Shown: positions 1,081 through 8,022 of the stretch, piece by piece | Position numbering within the stretch: the stretch's first letter is position 1 | Layout: every line of letters begins with the position of its first letter | Assembly (NCBI RefSeq): GCF_021531975.1 | Contig: NZ_JAFBIY010000004.1 | Location: 124,001-188,000 of the forward strand | Direction of reading: 5' to 3' | Length of the DNA stretch: 64,000 nt | Source of the DNA: Faecalicatena contorta | GTDB lineage: Bacteria > Bacillota > Clostridia > Lachnospirales > Lachnospiraceae | Program-made: the position numbers and the translations under genes | Notes under the pieces: generated by a model | The model's input: only the letters and a program-made list of their open reading frames with translations | Database searches by the model: none | Told to the model about the DNA's origin: nothing

Positions 1081-2295
1081 ATGCTTACATTAGAGAAATT
1101 TGAAGAAGCAAGTGAACTTGTGAAAAAGGTGACTTTACCGACAAAGCTTGTTTACAGTGAATATTTCAGTGAACAGACAGGTGGTAAAATATATCTGAAG
1201 CCGGAAAATATGCAGTACACCGGTGCGTACAAAGTACGTGGTGCATATTACAAGATCAGTACGATGAGTGAAGAAGAGAGAAAAAAAGGCCTGGTTGCTG
1301 CTTCTGCCGGAAATCATGCGCAGGGTGTAGCTTACGCCGCTAAAAAATTTGGGTGTAAAGCAACGATCGTAATGCCGACCATTACCCCTCTTATCAAAGT
1401 AAATCGTACAAAGAGTTATGGAGCAGAAGTTATTCTTCACGGTGATGTTTATGACGATGCATGCGCCTATGCCATGAAGATAGCAGAGGAACAGGGATGT
1501 ACATTTGTACATGCATTTGATGATCTTGAAGTTGCTACCGGGCAGGGAAGTATTGCCATGGAAATCGTGCAGGAGCTTCCGACTGTGGATTATATTCTTG
1601 TTCCAATCGGTGGCGGAGGACTTATCACAGGTGTTGCAACACTTGCAAAGATGCTGAACCCAAAGATTAAGATTATTGGTGTTGAGCCCGCTGCTGCTGC
1701 AAGTATGACAGCTGCGATCGCAGCCGGCGAGCCGGTAACAATTGAGAAGGCAGATACCATAGCTGATGGTACAGCAGTGAAGCGTGTAGGAGAGAATATC
1801 TTCCCGTATGCAAAAGAAAATATTGATCAGATCCTGACTGTACAGGATGATGAGTTGATCGGTGTTTTCCTTGATATGGTAGAGAATCATAAGATGATCG
1901 TTGAAAATTCCGGTCTTCTTACTGTTGCAGCATTAAAGCAGCTGGACTTAAAAGGAAAGAAAGCCGTTGCCATATTAAGTGGTGGAAATATGGATGTGAT
2001 TACGATGTCCTCTATTGTACAGCATGGACTGATTCAGAGAGACCGTATCTTCTCTGTATCTGTACTGCTTCCGGATAAACCGGGTGAGCTTGTTCGTGTT
2101 GCGGCAACAATAGCAGATGCGCAGGGCAATGTAATCAAACTGGAACACAACCAGTTCGTAAGCACGAACCGTAATGCGGCTGTAGAACTCCGTATCACGA
2201 TGGAAGCATTTGGAACAGAGCATAAGCACAAGATCTTTGAGGCATTAGAGAATGAAGGTTTCCGACCAAGAGAGATCGGAGCAAAGTTATACTAG
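1081..2295 (+). CDS. ilvA: Threonine ammonia-lyase (threonine dehydratase)
   Basis: This PLP enzyme deaminates L-threonine to 2-oxobutyrate and ammonia, feeding isoleucine synthesis or threonine fermentation. The fold type II catalytic domain spans about 1-315, with the PLP lysine in TGAYKVRGA (K51) and a glycine-rich phosphate loop GGGG near 178. An ACT-type regulatory domain follows (about 327-400, with DKPGELVRVA). The 404-aa length with a single ACT domain matches the short Gram-positive form often labelled ilvA or tdcB; which pathway it serves is not decided by sequence. It starts 5 bp after ftsY and is closed by a strong hairpin. Confidence 0.93.
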   Translation: MLTLEKFEEASELVKKVTLPTKLVYSEYFSEQTGGKIYLKPENMQYTGAYKVRGAYYKISTMSEEERKKGLVAASAGNHAQGVAYAAKKFGCKATIVMPTITPLIKVNRTKSYGAEVILHGDVYDDACAYAMKIAEEQGCTFVHAFDDLEVATGQGSIAMEIVQELPTVDYILVPIGGGGLITGVATLAKMLNPKIKIIGVEPAAAASMTAAIAAGEPVTIEKADTIADGTAVKRVGENIFPYAKENIDQILTVQDDELIGVFLDMVENHKMIVENSGLLTVAALKQLDLKGKKAVAILSGGNMDVITMSSIVQHGLIQRDRIFSVSVLLPDKPGELVRVAATIADAQGNVIKLEHNQFVSTNRNAAVELRITMEAFGTEHKHKIFEALENEGFRPREIGAKLY

Positions 2296-2317
2296 AAAAA
2301 TTATATTAAAAACAAAG

Positions 2318-2357
2318 GTGTGTGATGCAGAAAATGACTGTATCATGCACTTTTTTT
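2318..2357 (+). terminator. Rho-independent terminator after the threonine deaminase
   Basis: A 13-bp stem pairs 2318-2330 with 2338-2350, including three G-U pairs, around a 7-nt loop. Seven T residues follow at 2351-2357. It separates the ftsY-ilvA unit from the citrate synthase operon. Confidence 0.85.
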
Positions 2358-2372
2358 ATATATAATTTTATA

Positions 2373-2401
2373 TTGACAAAAACTGTATCATTGTATACAA
2401 T
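2373..2401 (+). promoter_or_regulatory. Sigma-A promoter of the citrate synthase-gntR-icd operon
   Basis: TTGACA at 2373-2378 is a perfect -35 box. It is separated by exactly 17 bp from TACAAT (2396-2401), one mismatch from the consensus -10. No other promoter is needed for the three genes that follow. Confidence 0.85.
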
Positions 2402-2407
2402 GATACA
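2384..2407. promoter_or_regulatory. Perfect 24-bp palindromic operator, probable GntR/FCD binding site
   Basis: Each half reads TGTATCATTGTA from its outer end, giving a perfect 24-bp inverted repeat centred between 2395 and 2396. The central ATTGTATACAAT resembles operators of FCD-subfamily GntR regulators. The palindrome covers most of the promoter spacer and the whole -10 box, so a bound protein should block RNA polymerase. The GntR/FCD regulator encoded in the same operon is the obvious candidate, implying autoregulation. Binding is inferred. Confidence 0.75.
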
Positions 2408-2458
2408 AGATTAAGTTTTATTACTTTACAACAGTAAAGGGCATAAAGGAGAATTAAT

Positions 2459-3850
2459 ATGGAAAACAGGAAAGTTTATCTTGATAAGCACTCGAATTTA
2501 TTACAGCTGGAAGAGCATATGTATCCGCTGGTAGATGTGGATACACCAAACGTGTTCCGCAATTTGTTTCACTACGATGAGATTCCGAAGATTGCATTTA
2601 ATGACCGAATTGTTCCGCACAGTATGCCGGATGAAATATGGATAACGGATACAACTTTCCGTGATGGACAACAGTCCAGAGCTCCATACAGCACGGAACA
2701 GATCGTAACTTTGTATGATTATTTCCATAAACTGGGAGGACCGCAAGGTAAGATCAGGCAGTGTGAATTTTTCCTGTACAGCAAAAAAGACAGAGATGCT
2801 GTATATAAATGTATGGAGAAAGGATATAAATTTCCTGAGATTACAAGTTGGATCCGTGCCAGTAAAAAGGATTTCGAACTTGTAAAAGAGATTGGCATGA
2901 AGGAAACAGGAATACTGGTAAGTTGTTCTGATTATCATATTTTCTATAAACTTAAGATGACAAGAAAGCAGTGTATGGAGCATTATTTATCTGTTGTACG
3001 TGAGTGCCTGGAGACGGGAATCAGTCCAAGATGTCATCTGGAGGATATCACGAGATCAGATATTTATGGCTTTGTAATTCCATTTTGTCTGGAACTCATG
3101 AAATTAATGGATGAATATAAGATACCGGTGAAAATTCGTGTCTGTGATACTATGGGATATGGTGTAAACTATCCCGGCGCAGTGATTCCACGTTCTATTC
3201 CTGGAATTATATACGGACTTCGTGTCCATGCGGGCGTACCTAGTGAACTGATCGAGTTCCATGGACATAATGATTTTTACAAAGCAGTAAGTAATTCCAC
3301 GACAGCATGGCTTTATGGAGCTTCCGGAGTAAACTGTTCATTGTTCGGAATAGGAGAACGTACCGGAAATACACCTCTTGAAGCAATGGTATTTGAGTAT
3401 GCGCAGCTTCGCGGCACACTGGATGGCATGGATACAACAGTGATAACAGATCTGGCTGAGTATTATGAAAAAGAAATCGGATATCGTGTTCCATCCAGGA
3501 CACCGTTTGTAGGCAAGAATTTTAATGTGACAAGAGCAGGAATTCATGCAGATGGACTCTTAAAGAATGAAGAAATTTACAATATATTTGACACAGATAA
3601 ATTCCTGAAACGGCCTCCTTTGGTAGCTGTATCCAATACATCAGGACTTGCAGGAATCGCGCACTGGATCAATACATACTTCCGCCTTCCAGAGGAAAAA
3701 CAGGTGGATAAGAATACAGAACTGGTAGCTATGGTAAAAAGCTGGGTGGATCATGAATATGAAGAAGGTCGTGTCACGGTTCTTACAGACGAGGAATTGC
3801 TTTCTGTTATTGACGACGCATGCAAAAAGCTTGGGGTCAGCCTTGTATAG
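2459..3850 (+). CDS. Probable Re-citrate synthase (2-isopropylmalate/homocitrate synthase family)
   Basis: The protein belongs to the DRE-TIM/HMGL aldol-condensing superfamily, with TDTTFRDGQQSR at about 63-74 and the metal-binding HGHND at about 268-272. At 463 aa it lacks the C-terminal leucine-binding domain of true 2-isopropylmalate synthase. It resembles the Re-face citrate synthase first shown in Clostridium kluyveri (acetyl-CoA + oxaloacetate to citrate). The neighbours argue for this role: a regulator and NADP isocitrate dehydrogenase follow in the same operon. No leuB, leuC or leuD is nearby. Homocitrate synthase is the main alternative; databases often call such proteins 2-isopropylmalate synthase. 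Confidence 0.75.
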   Translation: MENRKVYLDKHSNLLQLEEHMYPLVDVDTPNVFRNLFHYDEIPKIAFNDRIVPHSMPDEIWITDTTFRDGQQSRAPYSTEQIVTLYDYFHKLGGPQGKIRQCEFFLYSKKDRDAVYKCMEKGYKFPEITSWIRASKKDFELVKEIGMKETGILVSCSDYHIFYKLKMTRKQCMEHYLSVVRECLETGISPRCHLEDITRSDIYGFVIPFCLELMKLMDEYKIPVKIRVCDTMGYGVNYPGAVIPRSIPGIIYGLRVHAGVPSELIEFHGHNDFYKAVSNSTTAWLYGASGVNCSLFGIGERTGNTPLEAMVFEYAQLRGTLDGMDTTVITDLAEYYEKEIGYRVPSRTPFVGKNFNVTRAGIHADGLLKNEEIYNIFDTDKFLKRPPLVAVSNTSGLAGIAHWINTYFRLPEEKQVDKNTELVAMVKSWVDHEYEEGRVTVLTDEELLSVIDDACKKLGVSLV

Positions 3851-3877
3851 AGAAGAAATAGAAGAGAGGGATATATC

Positions 3878-4567
3878 ATGGAAGAATATCAGGACCGTTC
3901 GCTGCGGGGAAAAGTTTTTGAAAAGCTACGGGAAGATATACTGTCAGGAGTATACAAAGAGAATGAAGAACTTCGGGAAATTACGATAGGAGAAGAACTG
4001 GGTGTCAGCAGAACGCCGGTAAGAGAAGCATTAAGACAGCTGGAGCTGGAAGGTCTGGTCAGAATTATTCCGAACAAAGGTGCATATGTTACCGGTATCA
4101 CCTCAAAGGATGTGAAAGATATCTATAAGATTCGTTCTATGCTGGAAGGCTTATGTGCAAGATGGGCAACAAAGAATATAACAGAAGAGCAGACTATAGA
4201 ACTCGAAGAGATCGTTCTTCTGTCAGAATTTCACTTGCAAAAGCAGGAAAAAGAAAAGATTTTACAGGTGTCCGAGCTTGATGGAAAATTTCATAAAGTA
4301 CTTTATGAGGCTTCTGACAGCAGAATTTTGGAGCATATGTTGTCTGATTTTCATAAATATGTTAAAATGGCGCGTATGATGTCTGTTGGTGATAAGAATA
4401 GAGCAGCCGAGTCAGTCAAAGAGCATAAACAGATTCTGGAAGCAATCAAACAAAAAGATGCAGATAAAGCGGAAATACTTGCAAATCAACATATCATGAA
4501 TGTAATGGCTAACCTTCATATGGTAGACCAGGAAAAACAGGAGGAGATTAAAAATGGCAAAGATTAA
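3878..4567 (+). CDS. GntR-family transcriptional regulator, FCD subfamily
   Basis: Residues about 8-70 form a GntR winged helix with the diagnostic [20 protein letters not shown]. Residues about 80-205 form an all-helical FCD effector domain of the type that binds metal and a carboxylate. It sits between the citrate synthase-like gene and icd, and its last 14 bp overlap icd. It probably controls this operon through the perfect palindrome on the promoter at 2384-2407. A plausible effector is citrate, 2-oxoglutarate or another carboxylate, but the sequence does not tell which. Confidence 0.88.
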
Positions 4568-5756
4568 GATGACAAACCCGATTGTTGAGATGGATGGAGA
4601 TGAAATGACAAGAATTCTCTGGAAGATGATCAAAGATAATCTTCTGGAGCCATTTATTGAACTGAATACAGAATATTATGATCTGGGCCTGGAACACAGA
4701 AATGAAACAAATGATCAGGTTACGATTGATTCTGCGAATGCAACGAAAAAATACAAAGTTGCTGTAAAATGTGCAACGATCACACCAAATGCAGCACGTA
4801 TGACAGAATACAACCTGAAAGAAATGTGGAAGAGCCCGAATGGAACAATTCGTGCAATACTGGATGGTACTGTATTCCGTGCACCAATTGTTGTAAAAGG
4901 TATTGAACCATGCGTAAAAAACTGGAAAAAACCGATTACAATTGCAAGACATGCATATGGTGATGTATATAAGAACACAGAAATGAAGATTCCGGGACCA
5001 GGAAAAGTAGAACTTGTATATACAGCAGAGGACGGAACGCAGACAAGAGAGCTGGTACACAATTACGCCGGTCCGGGTGTGGCACAGGGAATGCATAATT
5101 TAAATAATTCTATTGAAAGTTTTGCAAGAAGCTGCTTTAACTATGCTCTGGATACGAAACAGGACCTGTGGTTTGCAACAAAAGATACTATATCCAAAAA
5201 ATATGATCACACATTTAAAGATATTTTCCAGGAAATCTTTGATGCAGAATATAAAGAGAAATTCGATGCAGCAGGCATCACATATTTCTACACACTGATC
5301 GATGATGCAGTAGCACGTGTAATGAAATCAGAAGGTGGTTACATCTGGGCATGCAAAAATTACGACGGAGATGTAATGAGTGATATGGTATCCTCCGCAT
5401 TCGGTTCCCTTGCAATGATGACATCAGTACTCGTATCACCGGACGACTACTATGAATACGAAGCAGCACATGGAACTGTACAGCGTCATTATTATAAGCA
5501 CCTGAAAGGGGAAGAAACATCAACAAACTCTGTAGCAACTATTTTTGCATGGACAGGTGCACTCAGAAAACGAGGCGAACTGGACGGTAACACCGAATTA
5601 ATGGCATTTGCTGATAAACTCGAAAAGGCAACAATCGATACCATCGAAGGCGGTCAGATGACAAAAGACCTTGCACTTATTACCACATTAGAAAATCCGA
5701 CCGTACTGAACAGTGAAGAGTTTATAAAAGCGATAGCTGGGAATTTGGTTCAGTAA
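4554..5756 (+). CDS. icd: Isocitrate dehydrogenase, NADP-dependent (eukaryotic-like type)
   Basis: This enzyme oxidatively decarboxylates isocitrate to 2-oxoglutarate with NADP, supplying glutamate precursors. The 400-aa sequence opens with [19 protein letters not shown] and carries [11 protein letters not shown] and the C-terminal [12 protein letters not shown], all typical of the eukaryotic-like homodimeric class rather than the E. coli class. It overlaps the GntR gene by 14 bp, so the two are translationally linked. With the Re-citrate synthase-like gene it provides two of the three steps from oxaloacetate to 2-oxoglutarate; aconitase must be encoded elsewhere. Confidence 0.95.
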
Positions 5757-5757
5757 G

Positions 5758-5944
5758 TGGTACGCGGATGTCGCTAAGATACCTTGCTACGACGCGTTCG
5801 ACTTTCTGACTAGCTCACGAATCTATAAGAGCCCAGAAAACAAACGGGAATCAAGGTTTGTTTTCTGGGCTCTAACAGATTCGGAGCGGATTCTCCAAGT
5901 CTTCCGCTTACCTTCGCAAAGCATCTTAGCGACATCCGCGGCCA
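5758..5944. repeat. 187-bp imperfect inverted-repeat element (possible MITE-like or structured intergenic element)
   Basis: The outer arms 5763-5780 and 5923-5940 are a perfect 18-bp inverted repeat, extended outwards by TGG/CCA with small mismatches. The inner arms 5828-5845 and 5856-5873 are another perfect 18-bp inverted repeat around a 10-nt loop. The sequence between outer and inner arms is also partly complementary (for example GAATCT/AGATTC). No coding frame or T-run was seen. It begins 2 bp after the icd stop and could act as an operon-end structure as well as a repeat. Confidence 0.7.
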
Positions 5945-6105
5945 TTTACTGTACTGGAAATTCGGGGATAAAATTGAACGCCTCAGTTTATTGGCAAAAC
6001 ATGTAATGTAGCTGGCCTTTTCAGCTCCTATGTGTAAAAGTGAAGAATTGTAATGAATTTTGGGAGGTTGAAGTCAGCCCCAGATAAAATCACTGAACCA
6101 AATTT
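5945..6105. other. Remainder of a 349-bp gene-free stretch; nothing recognised
   Basis: Between the palindromic element and the end of the ABC-F gene I see no convincing reading frame, promoter or terminator hairpin on either strand. A short imperfect hairpin near 6012-6032 (AGCTGGCC..CAGCT) is too weak to call as a terminator for the leftward ABC-F gene. Confidence 0.5.
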
Positions 6106-8022
6106 TTATTCCGCCAGTTCCTCCCATCGTTCGTATAGCAACTCTAATTCTTCAGCTACAGCAGCTTTTTCGTGTGCAAGCTCCTGGCATTTTACGGAGT
6201 TTGTATAGATTTCTTCCTGTGTCATCAGGTCATTTATTTCTGTGTCACGTTCTTCCAGGAAAGCGATGCGCTCCTCGGTCTTTTTCAAATCGTTTTTTCG
6301 TTTGCGTTCTCTTGCCTGTGCTTCTTTTTGCTCCTGCCAGCTGAGTTTAGATTCGGAGACAGAAGAGGAGCTGTCTGTCGTCTGCAATTCTGAAGAAGCA
6401 GCGTAGACAGCAGTAAGTTCATCTTTCTTTTCCAGATAATAATCGTAATTGCCGATATAGTTTACAAAAGTCTGGTTTACTAATTCCAGGATCCTGGTTG
6501 CAGTCTGATTGATAAAGTAACGGTCGTGTGAAACATAGAGTACCGTTCCGGTATAATCATTCAGTGCACGTTCCAGTATTTCCTTCGAAGTAATGTCCAG
6601 ATGGTTGGTTGGCTCGTCAAGGATCAGAAAATTTGCCTCAGAAAGCATAAGTTTGGCAAGAGATACACGTCCCCTTTCGCCACCGCTTAAATCACCGATG
6701 AGTTTAAACACATCATCCCCAGTAAAGAGAAATGCTGCCAGCATATTTCTTATTTTTGTATTTGTAAGATCTGGATAGTCATCCGATATTTCATCAAAAA
6801 TTGTCTTGTCCATGTGAAGTACATGGTGTTCCTGATCATAGTAGCCAATCTGCACATTTGTTCCCAGGCGGAAGCTTCCTTCGTCAGCAGAAACAACCTG
6901 ATTCAAGATTTTTAATAAGGTGGTTTTTCCGGTTCCGTTATCCCCGATCACAGCAACATGTTCGCCGCGTTTTATCTCGAAACTTATATCTTTGAAAAGT
7001 GTCTGTGGCGGGAATGCTTTACTCATATGTTCTACGGACAGTACATCATTTCCACTTATGCAGGAAGGCGTGAGTTCGAGATGGATCTCTGTATTCATTT
7101 CCACAGGTTTTTCAACCGGTTTCATTTTTTCAAGCATCTTCTCACGGCTTTCCGCTCGTTTGATTGACTTTTCACGGTTGAAAGAACGAAGCTTTTCAAT
7201 AACCGCCTCCTGGTGTTTGATTTCCTGCTGCTGATTTAAGTATTCTTTTAAGCGCGCATCTCGTAACTGCTTTTTCTTGTCTGCATAGGCACTGTAGTTG
7301 CCCATATATGTCATGAGCCTTCCATTTTCCACTTCAATGACTTTTGTTACAACACGATTCAGGAAGTAACGGTCATGAGATACAATCAGAACAGCTCCCG
7401 GATAATTGAGGAGATATGTTTCCAGCCATGCGATAGAATTCAGGTCCAGGTGGTTGGTTGGCTCGTCGAGAAGCAGAATGTCCGGTTTTGTAAGTAACAG
7501 TTTGCCGAGAGATACACGGGTTTTCTGACCTCCGGACAAAGTATCTACTTTTTTCTGAAAATCATTTTCATCGAATCCAAGACCTTTTAATACGCCAACA
7601 ATCTCGCTTTCATATGCATAACCATTTTCCCGCTCAAATGCGGCAGTCAGCCTGTTATATGTATCCATACGACTATTAAGCGCATCTCCGGTCAGATGTT
7701 TCATTTCCAGCTCGATTGCACGGATCTGACGTTCCATATCAATAATATCAGCTTTGGCGGTTTTTACTTCCTCATAGATAGAATTACCGCTTTCCATTTC
7801 CTGATGCTGCGCCAGATAGCCGAGAGTCTTACCTTTTGTCAGTACGATATTCCCACTGTCGACAGGAAGTTCGCCGACGATCATGCGCAGTATCGTTGTT
7901 TTGCCGGCGCCATTAGCCCCCACAAGAGCAGCTTTTTCATGGTCTTCTATATGAAATGAACCATCTTTAACGATGATATCTTCTCCAAATGCTTTGTTGA
8001 TTTCATGGCATGCGAATATCAT
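6106..8022 (-). CDS. ABC-F family ATPase (YdiF/Uup-like, duplicated ATP-binding cassette)
   Basis: Two ABC ATPase domains without membrane segments define an ABC-F protein, a group acting on the ribosome as translation factors or antibiotic-protection proteins. Cassette 1 has GANGAGKTT, LSGGQKTR and LLDEPTNHLDL; cassette 2 has GDNGTGKTT, LSGGERGR and LDEPTNHLDI. A charged P-site-tRNA-interacting linker lies between them, and a Lys/Glu-rich coiled coil fills the C-terminal ~70 residues, as in YdiF. At 638 aa it looks like a housekeeping ABC-F rather than a short resistance type, but resistance cannot be excluded. It is divergent from rex, with AGGAGG before its ATG. Confidence 0.9.
   Translation of the reverse strand: MIFACHEINKAFGEDIIVKDGSFHIEDHEKAALVGANGAGKTTILRMIVGELPVDSGNIVLTKGKTLGYLAQHQEMESGNSIYEEVKTAKADIIDMERQIRAIELEMKHLTGDALNSRMDTYNRLTAAFERENGYAYESEIVGVLKGLGFDENDFQKKVDTLSGGQKTRVSLGKLLLTKPDILLLDEPTNHLDLNSIAWLETYLLNYPGAVLIVSHDRYFLNRVVTKVIEVENGRLMTYMGNYSAYADKKKQLRDARLKEYLNQQQEIKHQEAVIEKLRSFNREKSIKRAESREKMLEKMKPVEKPVEMNTEIHLELTPSCISGNDVLSVEHMSKAFPPQTLFKDISFEIKRGEHVAVIGDNGTGKTTLLKILNQVVSADEGSFRLGTNVQIGYYDQEHHVLHMDKTIFDEISDDYPDLTNTKIRNMLAAFLFTGDDVFKLIGDLSGGERGRVSLAKLMLSEANFLILDEPTNHLDITSKEILERALNDYTGTVLYVSHDRYFINQTATRILELVNQTFVNYIGNYDYYLEKKDELTAVYAASSELQTTDSSSSVSESKLSWQEQKEAQARERKRKNDLKKTEERIAFLEERDTEINDLMTQEEIYTNSVKCQELAHEKAAVAEELELLYERWEELAE

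Follow-up and report, generated by a model that had tools for sequence, protein, structure and literature searches.

Strict anaerobes, the gut Lachnospiraceae among them, reach glutamate through the citrate-to-2-oxoglutarate branch, and to our knowledge little is known about its control. In Bacillus, citrate synthase and aconitase are controlled by CcpC/CitR, which are LysR-type and not GntR proteins, have other operators, and fill the same role in the citrate branch. PmiR of Pseudomonas aeruginosa, a GntR protein, is reportedly a sensor of 2-methylisocitrate. Atu1419 of Agrobacterium fabrum, an FCD-type GntR protein of the VanR group, is described in the accessible part of its report as binding the palindrome ATGTATACAT, which overlaps the -10 box of two targets; Arg45 reads G3 and Thr46 an A, and Ser44, Arg49 and Glu34 lie at the backbone (PMC7797058). 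According to the same text, the Atu1419 residues that match D135, H139, H183, H205 and R86 of the regulator studied here hold zinc and a fortuitous citrate, and citrate left DNA binding unchanged (PMC7797058). For CitO of Enterococcus faecalis, the accessible text reports metal- and arginine-dependent citrate binding with a KD of 1.2 uM and a requirement of Arg97 and His191 for citrate sensing (PMC4746285). A survey of GntR motifs, in the portion available, has one Clostridia regulator in what appears to be its FadR-subfamily column (PMC4494728). In the open literature we found no description of the regulator or operator reported here, subscription papers being mostly outside this coverage, and the accessible part of one paper that touches on Re-citrate synthase, isocitrate dehydrogenase and operons does not mention GntR (PMC12016533).

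We analyzed a 64,000-nucleotide stretch of the Faecalicatena contorta genome, called the window below. A sequence-only reading had proposed that a flawless 24-bp inverted repeat covers most of the spacer and the whole -10 box of a TTGACA-17-TACAAT promoter, in front of an operon with its own FCD-type GntR regulator, a Re-citrate synthase-like enzyme and isocitrate dehydrogenase. The geometry was borne out by the coordinates (Table 1): the arms, 12 nt long, are 100% complementary and 0 nt apart, and the repeat takes up 12 of the 17 spacer bases plus the entire -10. The promoter scored 11/12; since 2 promoter-like sites were found in the 201 bases scanned, with 1.5 expected from shuffles, the scan by itself is no proof. 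Across the 34 contigs of the genome (2.44 Mb) the 24-mer had a single copy at 3 or fewer mismatches, and the reversed control had none. We considered TGTATCAT at 2339-2346 as an auxiliary operator half-site and rejected it, as it is part of the hairpin upstream; in the other upstream regions compared, neither TGTATC nor GATACA stands 45 bp ahead of the operator.

Table 1. Promoter and operon features of the window (positions count from its first letter; hexamers and spacer as read from the sequence)
Feature	Positions	Strand	Remarks
Terminator-like hairpin	2314-2354	+	3' of the upstream threonine ammonia-lyase gene; holds the half-site 2339-2346
-35 hexamer TTGACA	2373-2378	+	Offset -11 from the operator, kept in relatives
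Spacer, 17 bases	2379-2395		
Proposed 24-bp operator TGTATCATTGTATACAATGATACA	2384-2407	.	Perfect inverted repeat; arms 2384-2395 and 2396-2407
Operator core TTGTATACAA	2391-2400		Outer arms 2384-2390 and 2401-2407
-10 hexamer TACAAT	2396-2401	+	Fully within the operator; 17-bp spacer
HMGL-family synthase, probable Re-type citrate synthase	2459-3850	+	PF00682, E 1.9e-33; function suggested by operon context
FCD-type GntR regulator, proposed operator-binding protein (autoregulated)	3878-4567	+	PF00392 and PF07729 above cut-off
NADP-dependent isocitrate dehydrogenase	4554-5756	+	NF006156, 690.8 bits, cut-off 335
Inverted repeat with 28-nt arms	5818-5883	+	Possible transcript end behind the operon
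ABC-F-like gene, named by eye	6106-8022		Convergent with the operon

Family models confirmed the gene content claimed for the operon as regards the regulator (PF00392, 66 bits with a cut-off of 27; PF07729, 97.7 bits with a cut-off of 24.3) and isocitrate dehydrogenase, whose genes overlap by 14 bases. The synthase assignment stood in part. The protein has the HMGL-family fold expected of a Re-citrate synthase, and its genetic link to aconitase and isocitrate dehydrogenase was found, the latter being next in 65 of 80 related loci and one locus (L351) reading operator-synthase-aconitase-GntR. However, its best NCBIfam model, NifV homocitrate synthase, gave 139.2 bits against a cut-off of 462.9, isopropylmalate synthase models likewise stayed under their cut-offs, and the genome also holds a Si-type citrate synthase-family gene (G000 C25:154978-156153, one PF00285 match), which led us to reject the HMGL synthase as the genome's sole citrate synthase. 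Of the 299 family genomes surveyed, 262, the window's included, have a gene matching PF00285, and at least two copies occur in 76/158 genomes without the HMGL synthase versus 20/141 with it (genome lists entered by hand). Behind the operon, nested inverted repeats at 5763-5940 (arms of 25 nt and 28 nt, 92-93% complementary) lie between the isocitrate dehydrogenase gene and the convergent ABC-F-like gene and resemble a terminator within a bigger palindromic element.

The search for the palindrome upstream of orthologous operons, which the earlier reading had put forward as a check, came out in its favor. A search of genome contigs with the GntR protein gave 492 relatives, and the best 80 of the 492 loci were used with the window, making 81 regions; the upstream region was that before the synthase, or before GntR where a complete synthase gene was missing, and an operator was counted at 4 or fewer mismatches. 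It was present in 74 of the 81, in 35 distinct sequences. The 7 regions in which it was not found were L007, L016, L037, L054, L057, L072 and L078; the synthase start lies off the contig in L007, L016 and L054, where the gene is cut by the contig end, and the other four are genuine misses or have a site farther away. By hand count, the order synthase-GntR-isocitrate dehydrogenase occurs in 65/80 loci, synthase and GntR without the same type of isocitrate dehydrogenase in 7/80, and GntR without synthase in 8/80.

Promoter register is kept along with the operator. In 71/74 sites a TTGACA with one mismatch or none lies at offset -11, other offsets from -40 to -6 having two or fewer each, and TACAAT within the operator is exact in 72/74. 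The exceptions have TTGACA at -20 and -21 (L006 and L071) and at -12 (L070); in L006 and L071 the left arms (TGTATAAT and TGTATGAT) fall at the -10, so the operator would cover the -10 there too. Over the 74 sites, all positions of the 24 bp but 1, 6 and 19 carry high information; in the flanks it is low save for TTGACA and for 0.5-0.7 bits at two bases before TTGACA and at one right after the operator. The G and C of the core TTGTATACAA are invariant (74/74), which fits the FCD-type GntR palindrome NyGTNxACNy. Perfect palindromes make up 29/74 sites. Position 6/19 is symmetric in 42/74 sites, with 39.1 in shuffles (p = 0.18), and covariation there was dropped as evidence of reading by a dimer; since this position is free, the window's copy owes its perfect symmetry partly to chance, and the operator as conserved across sites reads GTATNATTGTATACAATNATAC. 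Comparison of these regions argues strongly that the palindrome is a real, strongly conserved control site of citrate-to-2-oxoglutarate genes. At one locus (L172, G051 C304; positions 3001 and 3028) two operators stand 27 bp apart, start to start, before one synthase gene.

We then asked what the regulator looks like. FCD proteins of the VanR group have six FCD helices and FadR has seven. The predicted model (mean pLDDT 82.4) shows six well-predicted FCD helices (76-100, 103-120, 126-145, 149-168, 175-191 and 195-212) and an additional low-confidence helix at 218-225, and by this model the regulator would belong to the six-helix VanR group rather than with seven-helix FadR. The nearest solved proteins are PmiR (7xp0 and 7xp1; 2.1e-22 by sequence, 5.4e-13 by fold) and Atu1419 (1.6e-11 by fold, Foldseek). 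Residues E34, S44, R45, T46, R49, R86, D135, H139, H183 and H205 are invariant in 49 orthologues. The putative metal-site residues D135, H139, H183 and H205 align with N137, H141, H192 and H214 of Atu1419, and Arg97 and His191 of CitO appear to occupy the same positions as the pocket residues. The residues aligned to the DNA-contacting set of Atu1419 are identical here, and the invariant ones match those reading TGTATACA; being widespread in the family, they favor binding of such a core without singling out this protein.

Operator and regulator were then followed across 299 genomes of the family, one per genus, using the 24-mer with position 6/19 free and up to 3 mismatches, and presence cut-offs of E <= 1e-100 for the synthase (141 genomes) and E <= 1e-50 for GntR (135 genomes). 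The operator pattern occurred in 124/299 genomes and the reversed pattern in 10 (read from the table), unrelated to GntR, which 4 of the 10 possess. Genomes with both genes had the operator in 104/116 cases, those with the synthase only in 1/25, those with GntR only in 10/19, and those with neither in 9/139, that is, 114/135 with GntR versus 10/164 without (Fisher p = 1e-47 with genera treated as independent, an independence overstated because genera are related). No site was found at 3 mismatches in 12/116 genomes with synthase and GntR and in 9/19 with GntR only. Operator presence follows the regulator. The operator directly precedes GntR-isocitrate dehydrogenase in G022, G275 and G123 (L169, L217 and L233), where the synthase of this family was not found, and precedes GntR on stretches without synthase at L049, L055, L059, L063 and L069.

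A class-wide scan of 391 genomes gave a pattern match in 89 and a reversed-control match in 38 (hand count), so that pattern presence alone is weak at this level and the weight lies in the genes beside the sites. The thirty class-level loci examined comprised 17 that adjoin a synthase of 66-70% identity (seven families, with 7/17 from one genus), 5 that adjoin aconitase (three families), 2 that adjoin a GntR of 49-50%, 1 that adjoins a homocitrate-synthase-like gene, and 5 that adjoin none of these gene kinds. Among 80 genomes outside the family, a site was present in 15/18 with a strong GntR match versus 4/62 without, at a threshold chosen post hoc. Gene orders in these and the family loci included, besides that of L351 (an operator with 3 mismatches), operator-aconitase-GntR-citrate synthase of the Si family (L358 and L359), operator-GntR-citrate synthase of the Si family (L353), and a perfect operator followed by a homocitrate-synthase-like gene, above the cut-off of the NifV model, and GntR (L343, G320 C7); in L064 another isocitrate/isopropylmalate dehydrogenase-family gene, below NCBIfam cut-offs, lies between synthase and GntR. 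Operator and regulator are constant while enzymes and gene order vary.

Two of the class-level loci are of separate interest. The L343 enzyme stands in the usual synthase's place and is a candidate for a further Re-citrate synthase lineage; its genome also carries a site with one mismatch next to an aminotransferase (L344; 51% identity). At L310 (G462 C1) two related sites, with 3 mismatches each and 195 bp apart, have as neighbors a citrate lyase ligase gene and a GntR paralogue (38%), a hint of a sister regulator for citrate fermentation.

Co-occurrence, the cases with other enzymes and the DNA-reading residues together indicate that the operon's GntR very probably binds the palindrome. A dimer of this FCD-type protein of the VanR group would read the core TTGTATACAA, with Arg45 as the most likely contact of the invariant G. 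Conservation extends to the outer arms (GTAT..ATAC), which lie 8 bp beyond the core half-sites and probably accommodate additional protein, as an extended contact or as a second dimer. The bound dimer would cover the -10 and start region and close the promoter to RNA polymerase, so that GntR would repress its own gene together with those for citrate synthesis and isocitrate oxidation. We consider it likely that the palindrome is the operator of the operon's GntR and that binding there represses by occlusion of the -10; we infer repression from operator placement on the -10, and binding, ligand and stoichiometry are inferences too. All metal-site residues are retained in the FCD domain, as is the arginine that contacts citrate in Atu1419, so the signal is most likely a carboxylate, which may either release or strengthen binding. 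Citrate or isocitrate ranks first, as a tentative choice by analogy with PmiR, CitO and the Atu1419 pocket, followed, at somewhat longer odds, by 2-oxoglutarate or glutamate, which the target list suggests.

What else the regulator may control was examined at 62 sites outside the synthase and GntR fronts, taken from multi-site genomes and some operator-bearing genomes without synthase; labels were assigned by hand and the set is not exhaustive, the single sites of G026, G086, G102, G125, G285, G033, G250 and G280 being among those left out. With 2 or fewer mismatches, 22/26 sites precede nitrogen or citrate-branch metabolism genes of our own list, namely aspartate aminotransferases (18), AsnB (2), an ammonium transporter (1) and a 5-oxoprolinase subunit (1); the other 4 comprise DUF4914, pyruvate formate-lyase, AgcS and one in-frame site. 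One-mismatch operators stand before the DUF4914 gene in L162 (G045) and before the pyruvate formate-lyase gene in L165 (G278). With 3 mismatches only 7/36 sites precede such target genes, which makes single cases (glutamate dehydrogenase, aconitase, and Si-citrate synthase in G190) weak, and many of these second sites, like the in-frame ones, look like chance matches. Glutamine synthetase III, also at 3 mismatches, carries more weight, as its site was seen in two genera, with TTGACA at -11 in both. Aspartate aminotransferase is the first downstream gene in 20 genera and follows an intervening integrase gene in one further genus; the second aminotransferase type falls below its NCBIfam cut-off, so 'aspartate' is approximate there. 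A phage-integrase-family gene lies beside aspartate aminotransferase Ic in three genera (L155, L159 and L236). Listed targets accounted for 29/55 sites in GntR-bearing genomes and 0/7 in genomes without GntR. A binomial test of second targets was set aside, as its rate of 0.004 was assumed.

In the window's own genome, no second 24-mer site was found at 3 or fewer mismatches. A shorter pattern gave six matches there, five of them new at 2-3 mismatches, and one in the reversed control, so a weaker real second site is possible; none of the shorter-pattern matches fell within the 3-kb loci of known target genes, and no site was seen by eye upstream of aspartate aminotransferase Ic and aconitase. 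In other genera, the same operator also fronts aspartate aminotransferase, asparagine synthetase, glutamine synthetase III and other genes, a new observation, and the regulator's targets would there widen to the synthesis of aspartate, asparagine and glutamine. The first proposal, control of the 2-oxoglutarate branch, is too narrow for the regulator family, given the sites before aspartate aminotransferase, AsnB and glutamine synthetase III elsewhere.

Positions of these second sites bear on whether GntR might be mainly a CitO-like activator, or dual, a reading that in its dual form overlaps with ours and that we regard as unlikely. CitO, also an FCD GntR protein, activates with citrate from about -41 to -74, according to the accessible text. 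On the upstream side, two G060 sites, at Amt and SBP3, stop 8 bp short of TTGACA-17-TACAAT and TTGACA-17-TATACT, respectively, a placement like that of CitO activator sites, from which a dual repressor/activator role is possible; the aminotransferase site of L221 has the same offset upstream of TTGACA with a poor -10. The two good cases, Amt and SBP3, share one genome, and TTGACA just downstream of a site occurs only in L221, L223 and L225 among oriented sites. Against a main role in activation, the operon site covers the -10 in nearly all 74 sites instead of lying upstream of the -35 as in CitO. AsnB and glutamine synthetase III sites have the operon-like geometry in 4/4 cases, across the two genera that have them. 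At class level, TTGACA stands at -11 in 8/10 synthase sites (of 17 found) and 3/5 aconitase sites. Aminotransferase sites mostly lack a TTGACA there, counted at 2 or fewer mismatches to the hexamer (present in type Ic, 1/13; other type, 2/7); many of them lie, by eye, at or after the start, just 3' of a -10-like sequence, where the block would act at the start.

Binding by another regulator, for example an FCD GntR paralogue, with the operon's GntR acting elsewhere and being a neighbor by gene order only, is improbable. The core TTGTATACAA is probably common to FCD proteins: six exact copies occur in the window's genome, and of the five outside the operator, two have a GntR paralogue (about 40% identity) close by. 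Similar cores are probably read by further FCD paralogues, and the core by itself does not tell which protein binds; a genome search with the core only, at 1 mismatch, gave no enrichment (140 matches, 150 in the control). The two exact cores near those paralogues (G000 C11:210837, L082; C33:15739, L087) are perhaps operators of other FCD regulators. The full operator, however, tracks this GntR gene in the family, also where the synthase was not found, and does so in other families too (15/18 versus 4/62 genomes); the DNA-reading residues of the operon's GntR fit as well, though common in the family.

That the palindrome acts as RNA, as a hairpin or attenuator, or as the terminator of the neighboring gene, is very improbable: a minus-strand terminator-like hairpin was called over it, but a palindrome on the -10 leaves at least its left half untranscribed from this promoter, an Rfam search of 2200-6100 found no family, the upstream gene has its own hairpin (Table 1), and the -35 is in fixed register with the palindrome. 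A chance palindrome in AT-rich intergenic DNA, with which the chance-level symmetry at position 6/19 would agree, is refuted by the conservation in 74/81 regions, and one perfect 24-bp palindrome was observed in the 64 kb where base composition predicts 0.005.

The preferred reading, an operator through which the operon's GntR represses its own promoter, names the protein, defines the operator to the base and sets out the promoter geometry; it also supplies candidate targets from many genera and a few candidate ligands, so that branch control becomes testable with a single purified protein. Where annotation leaves the function of a citrate synthase in doubt, the operator also gives a regulatory clue to it. 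The regulon is new, and its kind, an FCD GntR regulator, is ordinary. More speculatively, one FCD GntR with a 24-bp double-armed operator may be the so far missing transcription factor that governs how carbon flows into glutamate in Clostridia: it would accompany the citrate branch from family to family, be the citrate synthase Re-type, Si-type or homocitrate-synthase-like, have spread in some Lachnospiraceae into a glutamine, aspartate, asparagine and ammonium regulon, sense a tricarboxylate via a metal, repress mostly, and activate at a few promoters by operator position.

Known systems share some traits with this locus and differ in others. NanR of E. coli (PMC8012715) is also an FCD GntR protein, and its operator consists of repeated GGTATA units with several dimers side by side. 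Those are direct repeats bound by three dimers of a protein with a 32-residue N-terminal extension, whereas the operator here is an inverted repeat without NanR-like direct GGTATA repeats and the GntR domain starts from about residue 11. CitO resembles the regulator in being an FCD GntR linked to citrate metabolism; unlike it, CitO activates citrate utilisation genes from its sites at about -41 to -74, and here the site lies on the -10 of a biosynthetic operon. PmiR is the closest solved relative by both sequence and fold, with D/H/H/H and Arg at the same places of the alignment. Atu1419 is alike in fold, in the core TGTATACA, in a palindrome over the -10, in the Ser44-Arg45-Thr46-Arg49 helix, and in the histidine metal site and Arg86; it differs in its 10-bp operator without outer arms, in being a tetramer able to loop two sites, in its folate effector, and in controlling hydroxycinnamate catabolism.
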